Shown here: positions 25,071-29,656 of the stretch, one piece after another
Layout: each line of letters opens with the position of its first letter
Numbering within the stretch: position 1 is the first letter of the stretch
Assembly: GCF_000009905.1 (NCBI RefSeq)
Contig: NC_006177.1
Coordinates: forward strand, 186,001-250,000
Origin: Symbiobacterium thermophilum IAM 14863
Lineage (GTDB): Bacteria > Bacillota > Sulfobacillia > Symbiobacteriales > Symbiobacteriaceae
Reading direction: 5' to 3'
Length of the DNA: 64,000 nucleotides
Notes under the pieces: generated by a model
Database searches by the model: none
Told to the model about the DNA's origin: nothing
Seen by the model: the letters and a program-made list of their open reading frames with translations, nothing else
Program-made: the position numbers and the translations under genes

Positions 25071-25142
25071 ATCGGCCGCGCGCAACAGGAGAAGCGCGGG
25101 TCGGGAGCGAATGGTGCCCGTGGAAGTCCGGGGGTGATGGAC

Positions 25143-26042
25143 GTGGATCGGTCCATACGGCTGGTGATCGTGACCGGGATGTCGGGCGCGGGGAAGACGC
25201 AGGCCCTCAAGTATCTGGAGGACCTGGGCTTCTTCTGCGTCGACAACCTGCCCCCGTCGCTCATGCCCAAGCTGGCCGAACTGTTCGGCCAGACCGAAGG
25301 CAAGGTCAGCCGGCTCGCGCTGGGGATCGACATCCGCGGCGGCCGGTTCTTCCATGAGATCCTCGGCGCCCTGCGCCAGATCGCCGAGATCGGCGTTGCC
25401 TACCAGATCCTGTTCATGGACGCCTCGGACGAGGTGCTGGTGCGCCGGTACAAGGAGACCCGGCGGCGCCACCCGCTGGCGGCCCAGGGCCGCGTGCTGG
25501 ACGGGATCCAGCGGGAGCGGAGGCTCCTGCAGGAGCTGCGGGGCCTGGCCACCTTTATCATCGACACCACGCACATGACGCCGGCCGACCTGCGTAAGGA
25601 ATTGAACAGGCGGTTCGGCCAGGACAGGGAGAGCCCGCACTTCCACGTGAACGTGGTCTCCTTCGGGTTCAAGCACGGTGCGGTGCTGGACGCCGACCTG
25701 GTGTTCGATGTGCGCTTCCTGCCCAACCCGCACTATGTGCCCGACCTGCAGCCGCTCACCGGCGAAGACCCCGCGGTCGTGGAGTACGTCATGAAGTGGA
25801 ACGTCACGCAGCAGTTCTACCGGCGGCTGACCGGCCTCATCGGTTTCCTGCTGCCGCACTACGTGGCGGAGGGCAAGAGCCTGCTGACCATCGCCATCGG
25901 CTGCACCGGCGGGAAGCACCGCTCCGTCTGCCTGGCGAACCGGCTGGCACACTGGATCCGGGAGCGGGGCTACTCGGTGTCCGTGGAGCACCGGGACATG
26001 CCGCGCCCCGCTGACCGCTCAGACGAGGAGGAGCAGCCGTAA
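25143..26042 (+). CDS. rapZ: RNase adapter protein RapZ
   Basis: The protein is 299 aa from the GTG at 25143, spaced from GGGGGTG; ATG 25137 and GTG 25134 are alternatives. Walker A GMSGAGKT is at about residues 12-19, followed by the RapZ/YvcJ hallmark FFCVDNLPPSLMPKL and the C-terminal sensor region GCTGGKHRSVCL. In E. coli RapZ binds GlcN6P and steers RNase E to the GlmZ RNA; in Firmicutes the YvcJ homologue is a nucleotide-binding protein linked to competence. It overlaps the yvcK gene by one base (TAATG), showing translational coupling. Confidence 0.97.
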   Translation: MDRSIRLVIVTGMSGAGKTQALKYLEDLGFFCVDNLPPSLMPKLAELFGQTEGKVSRLALGIDIRGGRFFHEILGALRQIAEIGVAYQILFMDASDEVLVRRYKETRRRHPLAAQGRVLDGIQRERRLLQELRGLATFIIDTTHMTPADLRKELNRRFGQDRESPHFHVNVVSFGFKHGAVLDADLVFDVRFLPNPHYVPDLQPLTGEDPAVVEYVMKWNVTQQFYRRLTGLIGFLLPHYVAEGKSLLTIAIGCTGGKHRSVCLANRLAHWIRERGYSVSVEHRDMPRPADRSDEEEQP

Positions 26043-27415
26043 TGCGCATCCTGCGCTGGTTCGCGCCCGGCCTTCACATCAAGCGGTGGCTGCTGGTGGC
26101 GGTCCTCGGCGTCGCACTGGTGGTGGTGGGCCTTTCCCTGACCCTGCGGATCAACCTGTACCGGCTCCTGGGTGCGTGGCTGGTGGAGAACGTCGCGGCC
26201 AGCCGGGCCGTGTTCTACACGGGGCCGGTGGTGGCCGGCGTCGCCGCGCTGGCCCTGGGGCTCGTGCTCACCTGGGTCGGCATCAGCCGCCTGGTGAACT
26301 CCGTGCTGTCCACCCTGACGGCCCGGGAAGAGGATGTGGCGGACGCTTTCCTGGAGCGCCGCCTCCTGGTGCGCGGACCGCGCGTAGTGGCCGTCGGCGG
26401 CGGGACCGGGCTCCCGGCCACGCTGCGGGGCATGAAGAACTACACCGCCAACATCTCGGCCGTGGTGACGGTGGCGGACGACGGCGGTTCGTCGGGCCGG
26501 CTGCGCACTGAGTTCGGCATCCTGCCGCCTGGCGACATCCGCAACTGCCTGATCGCCCTGGCGGACATCGAGCCGCTGATGGAGCGGCTGTTCCAGTACC
26601 GCTTCACCAACGGGGAAGGGCTGGCCGGCCATCCCTTCGGCAACCTGTTCATCCTCGCGATGTCCGAGACGACCGGCGACTTCTACCAGGCGGTCAAGGC
26701 CGCGAGCGAGGTGCTGGCCGTGCGCGGCCGGGTCCTGCCGTCCACGCTGGATCACGTCGTGCTGCGGGCGGAGCTGGCCGACGGGCGGATGGTGTCCGGC
26801 GAGTCGGCTATCGGCAGGGCCGGCAGCCCCATCCGGCGCGTCTTCCTGGATCCGGCGGACCCGGGCGGGAAGATCGCCGCCCTGGACGACGTGCTGTCCG
26901 CCATCGCGGAGGCCGAGCTGATCGTCCTGGGCCCGGGCAGCCTCTACACCTCCATCATGCCGAACCTGTTGGTGCCCGGGGTGGCCGATGCGATCCGGCG
27001 CTCGCCGGCGTTGAAGATCTACGTCTGTAATATCATGACCGAGCCCGGGGAGACCGACGGGTTCAAGGTCTCGGACCATATGAAGGCGCTGATCGACCAC
27101 GGCGGTTTCGGGCTGTTCGACGTCTGCCTCGTCAACACCCGGCAGGTGCCCGCGCGGCTGCGCGAGCGGTACCGGGAGGAGGGCGCGGAGCCCGTCGTCC
27201 TCGACCCGGCAGCTCAGCGGATGGGCGTTCAGGTGGTCGCGCGCGACCTGTTGCGGATCGAGGGGGACTACGTGCGGCACGACCCGGAGAAGCTGGCCCA
27301 GGCGATCGGGCACGTGTTCCTGGCCAGGCGGCCGCACGTGGGGCGCACTCCCTGGGAGTTCTTTCTGTTCCGACAGCGGCTGCGGGAGCGTTCCCGCCAG
27401 GAGGGGGTTGGGTAG
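26042..27415 (+). CDS. yvcK: Gluconeogenesis factor YvcK/MgfK (CofD-like)
   Basis: The protein is 457 aa, longer than B. subtilis YvcK because of an N-terminal extension with two membrane helices (about 15-40 and 58-80). The CofD-like core starts near residue 117 with VVAVGGGTGLPATLRGMK, then VTVADDGGSSGRLRTE, PPGDIRNCL and NEGLAGHPFGNLF. In homologues it binds UDP-sugars such as UDP-GlcNAc, supports growth on gluconeogenic carbon and localises PBP1. It is coupled to rapZ and abuts the Enzyme I-like/aldolase gene. The membrane anchor is seen in several clostridial homologues. Confidence 0.96.
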   Translation: MRILRWFAPGLHIKRWLLVAVLGVALVVVGLSLTLRINLYRLLGAWLVENVAASRAVFYTGPVVAGVAALALGLVLTWVGISRLVNSVLSTLTAREEDVADAFLERRLLVRGPRVVAVGGGTGLPATLRGMKNYTANISAVVTVADDGGSSGRLRTEFGILPPGDIRNCLIALADIEPLMERLFQYRFTNGEGLAGHPFGNLFILAMSETTGDFYQAVKAASEVLAVRGRVLPSTLDHVVLRAELADGRMVSGESAIGRAGSPIRRVFLDPADPGGKIAALDDVLSAIAEAELIVLGPGSLYTSIMPNLLVPGVADAIRRSPALKIYVCNIMTEPGETDGFKVSDHMKALIDHGGFGLFDVCLVNTRQVPARLRERYREEGAEPVVLDPAAQRMGVQVVARDLLRIEGDYVRHDPEKLAQAIGHVFLARRPHVGRTPWEFFLFRQRLRERSRQEGVG

Positions 27416-28708
27416 ATGGCCGTTTACCGTGCGCAGGGGGTATGGCCCGGAGAGGCTGAAGGCCGCATCGTCTGGGTGGATCCGGAGTGGCAGCCGGAGC
27501 GGGCCGGGTGCGCGGACAGGCCCGCGGAGATCGGGCGGCTGCGGGAGGCGGTCGGCCGCGCGCTGCACGACCTGGACGCCTGGATGGACCGGCAGCCGAC
27601 CCTCGGGGGGCGGGTGCTGCTGCAGCACTGCCGCGAGGCCCTTCAGGACCCGGCCTTCATGGAGCGGGTCACCATGCTGATCGACCAGCACGGCCTGACG
27701 GCCCCGGCCGCGCTGATGGAGGCGGCTTCCCTGGTGGGCGGCATCATGGCCCGCAGCGAAGAGCTGCGGGAGCGGGCGGCAGCCTTGCGGCAGACGGCCC
27801 GCTGGCTCGCCCGTCGGCTGGACGGCGCCGCGCACCCCGAGGATGCCATCCTCGCGAGCCGCGCCTTCTCGGCGCTGGAGCTCCTCGACCGCACGCGGCC
27901 GGCCGTGATGGCCGCCGGCGAGCCGGTGGTGGTGGGCGACGCGCCGCTGCTCTGGGGCGTGGACGCGGTGGCGCCGGAGTGGGCCGGCAGGCCGGCCCGG
28001 ATCCGCGGCGGCACGCTGATCCTCGGCGAGGAGGACGAGGCCGGCGGCCTCCTGCACGAGGCCGCGCGGCGGGCGGTCCTGGCCGTTGCCCGCCGCATGA
28101 AGGCGGAGGGGTTGGTGCGGATGAAGGAGGGCAACGTCTCCTGCCGCATCCCGGGAACCTCCCTGTTCGCGGTCACCCCCAGCGGCCTGCCCTACGAATC
28201 GCTGGAACCGGCGGACATCTGCATCCTGGACCTGGACGGACGGGTGGTGGACGCGCGGCGGCGGCCCTCCACGGAAACGGCTCTGCACCGGTTTGTCTAC
28301 CGGCGGCGTCCGGACGTGGGCGGGGTGGTGCACACCCACTCCCTCCACGCGACGGCCTTTGCCTGCACCGGGCGGGAGATCCCCGTGATCTCCACGGAGC
28401 TGGCCGCGCTGGTGGGGGCGGAGGTCCCCTGTGCGCCGTACGCCCCCGCCGGCACGGAGCGGCTCGCGGAGGTGGTCGCGGAGGCCCTGGGCGACGAGGG
28501 CGCCGCCGCGCTGCTGCAGAACCACGGCGTTGTCACGGTCGGGGAGACGGTGGAGCAGGCCTACGCGGCCGCGGTGGCGGTGGAGGTGGCCGCGCAGGTC
28601 TTCCTGCTGGCGCGGCAGTTGGGGGAGCCGATCGTTCTTCCGCCGGAGGAGCGTCGACGCATCTTCCGCTCCATGCGCACCGGCTACGGGCAGCCCCGGG
28701 AGGCATAG
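27416..28708 (+). CDS. Enzyme I N-domain-like/class II aldolase fusion
   Basis: The protein is 430 aa; ATG follows directly on the yvcK stop, with GGAGGGGGTTGG overlapping. Residues about 1-150 resemble the N-terminal part of PTS Enzyme I: an opening like KGIxASPGIAxG (RAQGVWPGEAEGRIVWVD), then the helical HPr-docking portion (LLQHCREALQDPAFMERVTMLIDQHGLTAPAALMEA, LRQTARWLARRL). The phosphohistidine swivel domain (GGxTSHTAI) is absent. From about 215 on it is a class II aldolase/adducin domain with GNVSCR, VTPSGLPYESL, STETALH, VVHTHS and LLQNHGVV, so the zinc histidines are in place. It lies between yvcK and whiA. Sugar-phosphate aldolase or epimerase chemistry is likely; PTS-responsive control is a hypothesis. 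Confidence 0.82.
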   Translation: MAVYRAQGVWPGEAEGRIVWVDPEWQPERAGCADRPAEIGRLREAVGRALHDLDAWMDRQPTLGGRVLLQHCREALQDPAFMERVTMLIDQHGLTAPAALMEAASLVGGIMARSEELRERAAALRQTARWLARRLDGAAHPEDAILASRAFSALELLDRTRPAVMAAGEPVVVGDAPLLWGVDAVAPEWAGRPARIRGGTLILGEEDEAGGLLHEAARRAVLAVARRMKAEGLVRMKEGNVSCRIPGTSLFAVTPSGLPYESLEPADICILDLDGRVVDARRRPSTETALHRFVYRRRPDVGGVVHTHSLHATAFACTGREIPVISTELAALVGAEVPCAPYAPAGTERLAEVVAEALGDEGAAALLQNHGVVTVGETVEQAYAAAVAVEVAAQVFLLARQLGEPIVLPPEERRRIFRSMRTGYGQPREA

Positions 28709-28711
28709 GCG

Positions 28712-29656
28712 TTGTCTGAAGAACTCTCTTTCTCGGCGATGGTCAAGGCGGAGCTGGCGCTGCTGACGCCCGAGCTGCCGTGCTGCCGGCGGATGGAGCT
28801 GGCGGGACTGGTGCGGGCGTTGGGGCGCCTGGAACTGTCGGGGCGGGGGCGGTTCGCCCTCACCCTCTCCACCGACTCGGCCCCGGTGTCTCGCAAGGTG
28901 ATCCGGCTGCTGAAGAGCGTCTCGCCGGTGCGGTACGAGGTCATGGTCATGCGGCGCCGCAAGTTACGCAAGAACCTCGTGTACCGGGTGCACATCCCGC
29001 ACCAGCCCGGGGTCGCCGAGCTGCTGCAGCTGGCGGGCTTCATCGACGAGGCGGGGCGGCCCGCCGACTGGGTGGAGCCCCCGGAGTTGGCCAACGACCA
29101 CTGTCGCCGCGCGTTTCTGCGGGGCACCTTCCTGGGCAGCGGCTGGGTGGCGGGTCCGGAAAAGCAGCACCACCTGGAGATCACCACGACGGCCACGGAG
29201 GCGGCGGACGCCCTGGGCCAGATGCTCTTCCGCGGCGGCATCGCGGCACGCATGGTCGCCCGCCGGGAGTCCCTGGTCCTGTACATCAAGGAGGCCGACC
29301 AGATCATCCGTTTTCTCGGGCTCGTCGGCGCGCACCAGGCCCTCCTGCGCTACGAAGAGGTGCGCGTCATCAAGGAGATGAAGAACCAGGTGAACCGCCA
29401 GGTCAACGCCGAGGTCGCCAATATGACCAAGCAGGCGGACGCGGCGGCCCGCCAGGTGGAGGCCATTAAACGGCTGGAGGCGGCCGGTGCCCTGGAGCGG
29501 GTCTCGCCGCCGCTGCGGGAGCTGGCGGGTCTCCGGCTGGCCTACCCTGACGCCAGCCTGAAGGAGCTGGGCGAGCTGTGCCGCCCGCCTGTCAGCAAGT
29601 CCGGTGCGGCGCACCGGATGCGCCAGCTCATGGCCCTGGCGGAGTCCCTGGAGTGA
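28712..29656 (+). CDS. whiA: DNA-binding protein WhiA
   Basis: The protein is 314 aa with a TTG start at 28712, three bases after the aldolase-fusion stop. WhiA joins a LAGLIDADG-like homing-endonuclease fold (two repeats within about 20-215, no catalytic acidic residues expected) to a C-terminal helix-turn-helix (about 225-305, LRELAGLRLAYPDASLKELGELCRPPVSKSGAAHRMRQL). In Streptomyces it controls sporulation division; in Bacillus it affects division and chromosome segregation. FLRGTFLGSGWVAGPEKQHHLEI is a strong family signature. It is the last gene of the rapZ-yvcK-whiA operon. Confidence 0.97.
   Translation: MSEELSFSAMVKAELALLTPELPCCRRMELAGLVRALGRLELSGRGRFALTLSTDSAPVSRKVIRLLKSVSPVRYEVMVMRRRKLRKNLVYRVHIPHQPGVAELLQLAGFIDEAGRPADWVEPPELANDHCRRAFLRGTFLGSGWVAGPEKQHHLEITTTATEAADALGQMLFRGGIAARMVARRESLVLYIKEADQIIRFLGLVGAHQALLRYEEVRVIKEMKNQVNRQVNAEVANMTKQADAAARQVEAIKRLEAAGALERVSPPLRELAGLRLAYPDASLKELGELCRPPVSKSGAAHRMRQLMALAESLE

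Follow-up and report, generated by a model that had tools for sequence, protein, structure and literature searches.

Three genes of the Bacillus cluster, rapZ, yvcK and whiA, are followed by crh, giving the order rapZ-yvcK-whiA-crh. In DhaM, HPr/IIA domains are joined to a truncated Enzyme I. Multiphosphoryl transfer proteins (MTPs) combine Enzyme I with domains of these kinds (PMC2405797). The MTPs were described as known fusions in a 2008 census of PTS phosphotransfer proteins, which included Symbiobacterium thermophilum and mentions no aldolase (PMC2405797). A description of an architecture composed of an Enzyme I remnant and an aldolase was not found in the literature searched. The first-pass annotation likewise knew of no described system of this kind. 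Here, we report a protein of this architecture from S. thermophilum, together with its homology, locus and distribution, the loss of its phosphotransfer residues, and the purifying selection acting on it.

Locus and gene order

The genome of S. thermophilum is represented by one contig of 3,566,135 bases. The window, i.e. the whole stretch of DNA that was analysed, comprises 64 kb of this contig (186001-250000), and the coordinates of the features given below are those of the window. The ORF list and Pfam place the fusion gene, an ORF of 430 aa (27416-28708, plus strand), between yvcK and whiA. The ORF, strand, coordinates, and position within the yvcK-whiA operon had all been given correctly at first pass. 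The features of the locus are as follows:

25134..26042, plus strand: rapZ (yvcJ); PF03668 and PF22740; upstream, in the same gene run
26042..27415, plus strand: yvcK/glmR; PF01933 (E 3e-115); directly upstream of the fusion
27399..27407, plus strand: Shine-Dalgarno-like AGGAGGGGG; 8 nt upstream of the ATG, within the end of yvcK
27416..28708, plus strand: fusion ORF, Enzyme I N-domain remnant plus class II aldolase; the same fusion is found in two other members of the genus
28712..29656, plus strand: whiA; PF02650, PF14527, and PF10298; start 3 nt past the fusion stop codon

The stop codon of yvcK (TAG, 27413-27415) abuts the ATG of the fusion. As identified by Pfam, the gene run comprises rapZ, yvcK, the fusion, whiA, polyprenyl synthase, rex, cdaA, ybbR, and glmM, in this order. 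No promoter-like site was seen in a simple scan from the end of rapZ to the end of whiA, which is consistent with a single operon.

Other genes were also found at this position. A stand-alone gene for a beta-eliminating lyase is located directly between yvcK and whiA in G008 (L108:2329-3741, plus strand), and another one lies within the longer yvcK-whiA gap of G064 (L106:5614-7092, minus strand). This suggests that metabolic enzymes repeatedly enter this slot. In G140, yvcK is part of a single 799-residue frame with a C-terminal beta-eliminating lyase of the tryptophanase/tyrosine phenol-lyase family (PF01212; L122:1116-3515, plus strand); this yvcK-lyase fusion was seen in one genome and may be an assembly error. 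A full-length canonical Enzyme I gene, and then a PTS IIB-like ORF, adjoins the start of whiA in G064 (L106:532-2268, minus strand). This Enzyme I gene shares its contig with yvcK and lies about 8.6 kb downstream of that gene.

Enzyme I homology of the N-terminal part

The following features were recognized in the N-terminal part of the protein:

27416..27493, plus strand: residues 1-26, first strand hairpin of the Enzyme I swivel (G-WPGEAEGRIVWV), by alignment with canonical Enzyme I
27434..27775, plus strand: residues 7-120, match to PF05524 (PEP-utilisers_N), E 1.9e-12 (E 4.5e-13 in the whole-genome search)
27494..27826, plus strand: residues 27-137, helical bundle homologous to the HPr-docking subdomain of Enzyme I, by AlphaFold and Foldseek
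27827..28045, plus strand: residues 138-210, probably what is left of the second half of the swivel after deletion of the phosphohistidine loop/helix, by colinear alignment

The PF05524 match of the fusion scored twice the curated cut-off and persisted with the aldolase cut away. A profile of the five family members described below aligned with canonical Enzyme I over residues 3-157 (E 2.2e-12 in profile-profile comparison). The same five-row profile matched solved Enzyme I N-domains in the PDB (5woy, E 4.7e-4); a single-sequence phmmer search of the PDB with residues 1-214 gave no match. In the AlphaFold model obtained for the N-terminal part from the single sequence, helices span residues 35-57, 63-77, 79-92, 96-111, and 115-135, with pLDDT values of about 62-88, and the flanks are unmodelled. 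The best 13 PDB matches of this model in Foldseek were all N-domains of Enzyme I or EI-Ntr, and the model superimposed on 2hro and 5woy at 1.7-1.9 A over 110-113 columns (2hro, 1.9 A over 113). Taken together, the PF05524 and profile matches and the fold found by Foldseek indicate that the HPr-docking bundle is present in the fusion. The full-length AlphaFold model scored mostly 75-90 in the aldolase blocks and mostly below 50 in the N-terminal part, since the alignment contained no rows there. The first-pass annotation had described the N-terminal region as Enzyme I-like, and this description is borne out by a significant sequence match as well as by a predicted fold that is that of the Enzyme I N-domain.

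The phosphohistidine swivel domain had been regarded as missing. This is true of the phosphohistidine segment: about 14-17 residues bearing TSHT are deleted, no His is conserved in the alignment with Enzyme I, and no Pfam match to PF00391, the phosphohistidine swivel domain, was obtained for the fusion. It is not true of the domain as a whole. The swivel half is shrunken, but the hairpin WPGEAEGRIVWV and the strand AILASRAFSALEL, which precedes the phosphohistidine loop, still align with Enzyme I. The PEP-binding TIM barrel (PF02896), Cys502, and the IGTND motif are absent from the fusion. The free relatives of the N-terminal part possess about 105 extra residues that align colinearly with the last part of the Enzyme I barrel (HPGVQVLLRRALEATREAGLPLLAGGE). 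Both the catalytic Cys and IGTND are missing from this tail, which is only suggestive of a barrel remnant. The swivel and barrel remnants taken alone did not reach significance in profile-profile comparison with shuffles, so that their assignment is based solely on colinearity.

Class II aldolase part

The features of the C-terminal part are as follows:

28073..28603, plus strand: residues 220-396, class II aldolase domain (PF00596), E 1.1e-56
28274..28276, plus strand: Glu287, equivalent of the catalytic Glu73 of FucA, by aldolase alignment
28331..28339, plus strand: His306 and His308, zinc ligands (VVHTHS), by aldolase alignment
28523..28525, plus strand: His370, third zinc histidine (LLQNHG), by aldolase alignment

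Among 20 aldolases, Glu287, His306, and His308 were invariant and His370 was nearly so. The PF00596 match and the three retained histidines confirm the initial assignment of this part to class II aldolases with intact zinc histidines. The closest solved structures are those of the fuculose phosphate aldolases 6btd (E 1.9e-43) and 1dzw. According to the whole-genome search, the fusion is the sole PF00596 gene of S. thermophilum. Judged by its sequence, the aldolase is most likely metal-dependent and would act on a ketose phosphate, the substrate being one that we infer. No substrate-specific NCBIfam assignment was reached, with best scores of 203.8 bits against a cut-off of 251 (PRK06557) and 174 against 264 (PRK06833). 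Naming the substrate from the neighbours of the nearest stand-alone aldolases was also considered and rejected because these neighbourhoods are too mixed; they include PTS-type transporter ORFs, a quinolinate-phosphoribosyltransferase-like gene, and a maleate-isomerase-like ORF.

The phosphate loop (window positions 28118-28144) reads RMKEGNVS in S. thermophilum versus LTAGN/LTSGN in the other three aligned aldolases of the family. Lys is located here at the position of Thr26 in FucA, which is occupied by Thr in FucA itself and in these three aldolases. The dN branch of the aldolase is about 0.12 in S. thermophilum versus 0.045 in its sister G003. The faster branch and the Lys in the phosphate loop suggest that the activity of the S. 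thermophilum aldolase may be altered.

Distribution and evolutionary history

The N-terminal part is present at the yvcK-whiA locus in all five Symbiobacteriaceae genomes examined, without a frameshift or an internal stop in any of them. Three members of the genus Symbiobacterium encode the fusion (429-430 aa), which is intact in each of these genomes; a sequencing or frameshift artefact is thereby ruled out. In two sister genera, a free Enzyme I-like protein (355 and 345 aa) is encoded between yvcK and whiA by a gene that overlaps a separate aldolase gene (221 aa in G001). The presence of two overlapping genes in the sister genera suggests that Symbiobacterium fused a pre-existing pair. In a sister family of the same order, whiA directly follows yvcK.

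Beyond the family, the N-terminal part was not detected outside of full-length Enzyme I in the class (149 genomes) or in the phylum sample, which comprised 397 further genomes, evenly drawn and overlapping the 149-genome class set. All of these other matches in the class and phylum were full-length Enzyme I proteins of about 575-600 aa, with the exception of one frame cut by a contig end. Related loci in the genome contigs were represented only by aldolases of planctomycetes and others, all without the N-terminal part, and no relative was found in the viral contigs scanned. In the tree of the helical bundle, the five family members clustered with a support of 1.0 and were placed, weakly (0.61), beside Enzyme I of the same order, as would be expected for a local duplication. 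By parsimony, the distribution and the tree point to duplication and decay of an Enzyme I, its pairing with an aldolase, and fusion in Symbiobacterium.

HPr-docking face

The positions of the Enzyme I-HPr interface were taken from PMC3724859, and six acidic HPr contacts were scored, namely E67, E68, E74, D82, E84, and D129 (E. coli numbering, PMC3724859). Each of the five family members keeps one of the six contacts. In 32 Enzyme I proteins the number retained is 3-6, and in two diverged Enzyme I proteins it is three. The net charge of the stretch 62-92 is about 0 in the family versus mostly negative in Enzyme I. E67-K69 are deleted, E74 is changed to Gln, M78 to Glu/Asp, and E84 to Ala, while Y122 and D129 are lost; the acidic residue at M78 and the loss of Y122 are common to all five members. 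The family retains R126 and an acidic residue at position 82. The M78 position is also acidic in one aligned HPr-Enzyme I fusion. A 697-residue protein with an HPr-like N-terminus, a full Enzyme I, and an unusual docking face is encoded in G161 (L156:1096-3189, plus strand).

When gaps were excluded, the mean similarity of the 28 interface positions differed from that of the rest of the bundle by 0.16-0.44 (permutation P 0.19-0.35), which overlaps the canonical range. The loss of constraint at the HPr interface that mean BLOSUM scores had suggested arose from counting three deleted positions. Within the family, 13 of the 25 aligned face positions are invariant versus 24 of the 81 others (one-sided p 0.037, uncorrected), in a set of five related sequences not corrected for phylogeny. 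These statistics are weak because the collections searched contain only five related sequences. The greater invariance of the docking face makes it probable that this face has a binding partner, perhaps a new one, and the simplest reading of these patterns is that the former HPr face would still matter, without Enzyme I chemistry.

HPr and Crh genes

Two HPr genes were identified in the genome of S. thermophilum, one at 3505898, beside Enzyme I, and one at 1071430, in a PTS operon. Two HPr sequences from this organism are also listed in the census (PMC2405797). The ptsH-ptsI pair is found in G000 3501500-3509500 (L123), and the second HPr gene ends a run of ORFs for a PTS regulator, IIB, IIC, and IIA, as read by eye from their translations (G000 1066000-1077000, L124). 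According to the whole-genome search, neither HPr nor Crh is encoded in the window. Since both HPr genes are located elsewhere, the yvcK-whiA cluster contains no Crh, and the association of Crh with rapZ-yvcK-whiA, to which the first-pass annotation had appealed, does not extend to this locus. Its further proposal, that the enzyme senses HPr or Crh by docking, is disfavoured both by this absence and by the single acidic contact kept out of six, compared with 3-6 in Enzyme I. The search for HPr kinase gave no match in the genome, and the same search was also without a match in the B. subtilis control.

Possible function

We assign a probability of about one half to the reading that a metal-dependent ketose-phosphate aldolase/epimerase has gained an interaction domain in the form of a dead Enzyme I remnant, with a binding role, partner, and substrate that are putative. 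In the ancestor of the Symbiobacteriaceae, an Enzyme I paralogue would have lost the phosphohistidine segment and most of the PEP-binding barrel, and the decayed paralogue, together with an aldolase gene, would have become established in the yvcK-whiA interval. Fusion of these two overlapping genes in Symbiobacterium would have been accompanied by loss of the remaining C-terminal tail. On this reading, the helical bundle most likely serves now as a regulatory or scaffolding interaction domain, with its former HPr face remodelled for another partner. The fusion would share its transcript with YvcK and WhiA, and YvcK is, by position only, the nearest candidate partner. We hold only tentatively the narrower proposal that the bundle is a docking-only control domain of the aldolase. 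Its ligand would be either HPr, bound in a modified manner, or a new partner, for instance the co-encoded UDP-sugar sensor YvcK, and the domain would link the aldolase to carbon or cell-wall precursor status.

Carriage of a dead segment by gene fusion and translational coupling, on its way to being lost, would fit the stepwise disappearance of the catalytic parts, i.e. the barrel core, the phosphohistidine loop, and then, at fusion, the C-terminal tail. It is very improbable in view of the uninterrupted frames in all five genomes and of the pN/pS values (Nei-Gojobori, three fusions), which lie at 0.29-0.39 in residues 1-210 and at 0.30-0.45 in the aldolase. Both parts are under purifying selection, and the constraint on the N-terminal part is no weaker than that on the aldolase, so that selection evidently maintains the dead Enzyme I segment. 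Such selection needs no partner, and the N-terminal part could simply stabilize or oligomerize the aldolase of a thermophile. The family-specific invariant tryptophans of this part (W10, W20, W56, W130, W180, and W189) resemble a repacking of the shrunken fold and speak for this role. We nevertheless regard a purely structural appendage as rather doubtful, since the domain is a separate protein, unattached to the aldolase, in two genera, and since its conservation is strongest on the face formerly used for docking.

This conservation, together with the retained bundle fold, R126, and acidic position 82, could also be explained by a PTS sensor, in which HPr, phosphorylated or not, would dock on the bundle and switch the aldolase according to sugar supply, without phosphotransfer. 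Enzyme I and two HPr proteins are encoded in the genome, and the intact-looking HPr-Enzyme I fusion on L156 likewise departs from the usual interface. Sensing of this kind appears unlikely, given the deletion or change of E67-K69, E74, M78, E84, Y122, and D129, the near-zero local charge, and a window without an HPr or Crh gene. Reuse of the remnant as an interaction domain thus remains our preferred reading.

The protein presents a pseudo-Enzyme I on an aldolase within a regulatory gene cluster that ranks among the most conserved in Gram-positive bacteria. The transition from a free pair to a fusion within one family offers a stepwise view of a phosphotransfer enzyme being turned into a possible regulatory domain, and these proteins could provide a small, soluble model for the capabilities of the Enzyme I docking bundle when it is uncoupled from phosphotransfer. 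Should the bundle regulate the aldolase, this would constitute a link from the PTS or YvcK to triose/ketose-phosphate metabolism that is missing from current maps.

Comparison with known systems

The N-domain of PTS Enzyme I (PF05524; E. coli EIN 1zym/3eza, S. carnosus 2hro) and the fusion are alike in bundle fold, element order, and the first swivel hairpin. The fusion differs in having no phosphohistidine segment or PEP-binding barrel and in the loss of acidic HPr contacts, of which one of six is kept, and its gene is not located beside ptsH. With the L-fuculose-1-phosphate aldolase / L-ribulose-5-phosphate 4-epimerase (FucA/AraD) family (PF00596; 1fua, 6btd, 1jdi), the fusion shares the whole domain, including the zinc histidines, the catalytic Glu, and the Gly-Asn phosphate loop. 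In contrast to members of that family, it scores below all substrate-specific NCBIfam cut-offs, carries an N-terminal Enzyme I remnant, and has Lys in place of the conserved phosphate-loop Thr. The order rapZ-yvcK-whiA is common to the Bacillus cluster and the Symbiobacterium locus, but the latter lacks crh, contains the fusion gene between yvcK and whiA, and has polyprenyl synthase after whiA. MTPs and DhaM, unlike the Symbiobacterium fusion, keep the phosphorylatable His and their PTS partners; in these systems, too, parts of Enzyme I have become components of fusions associated with triose/sugar phosphate metabolism.
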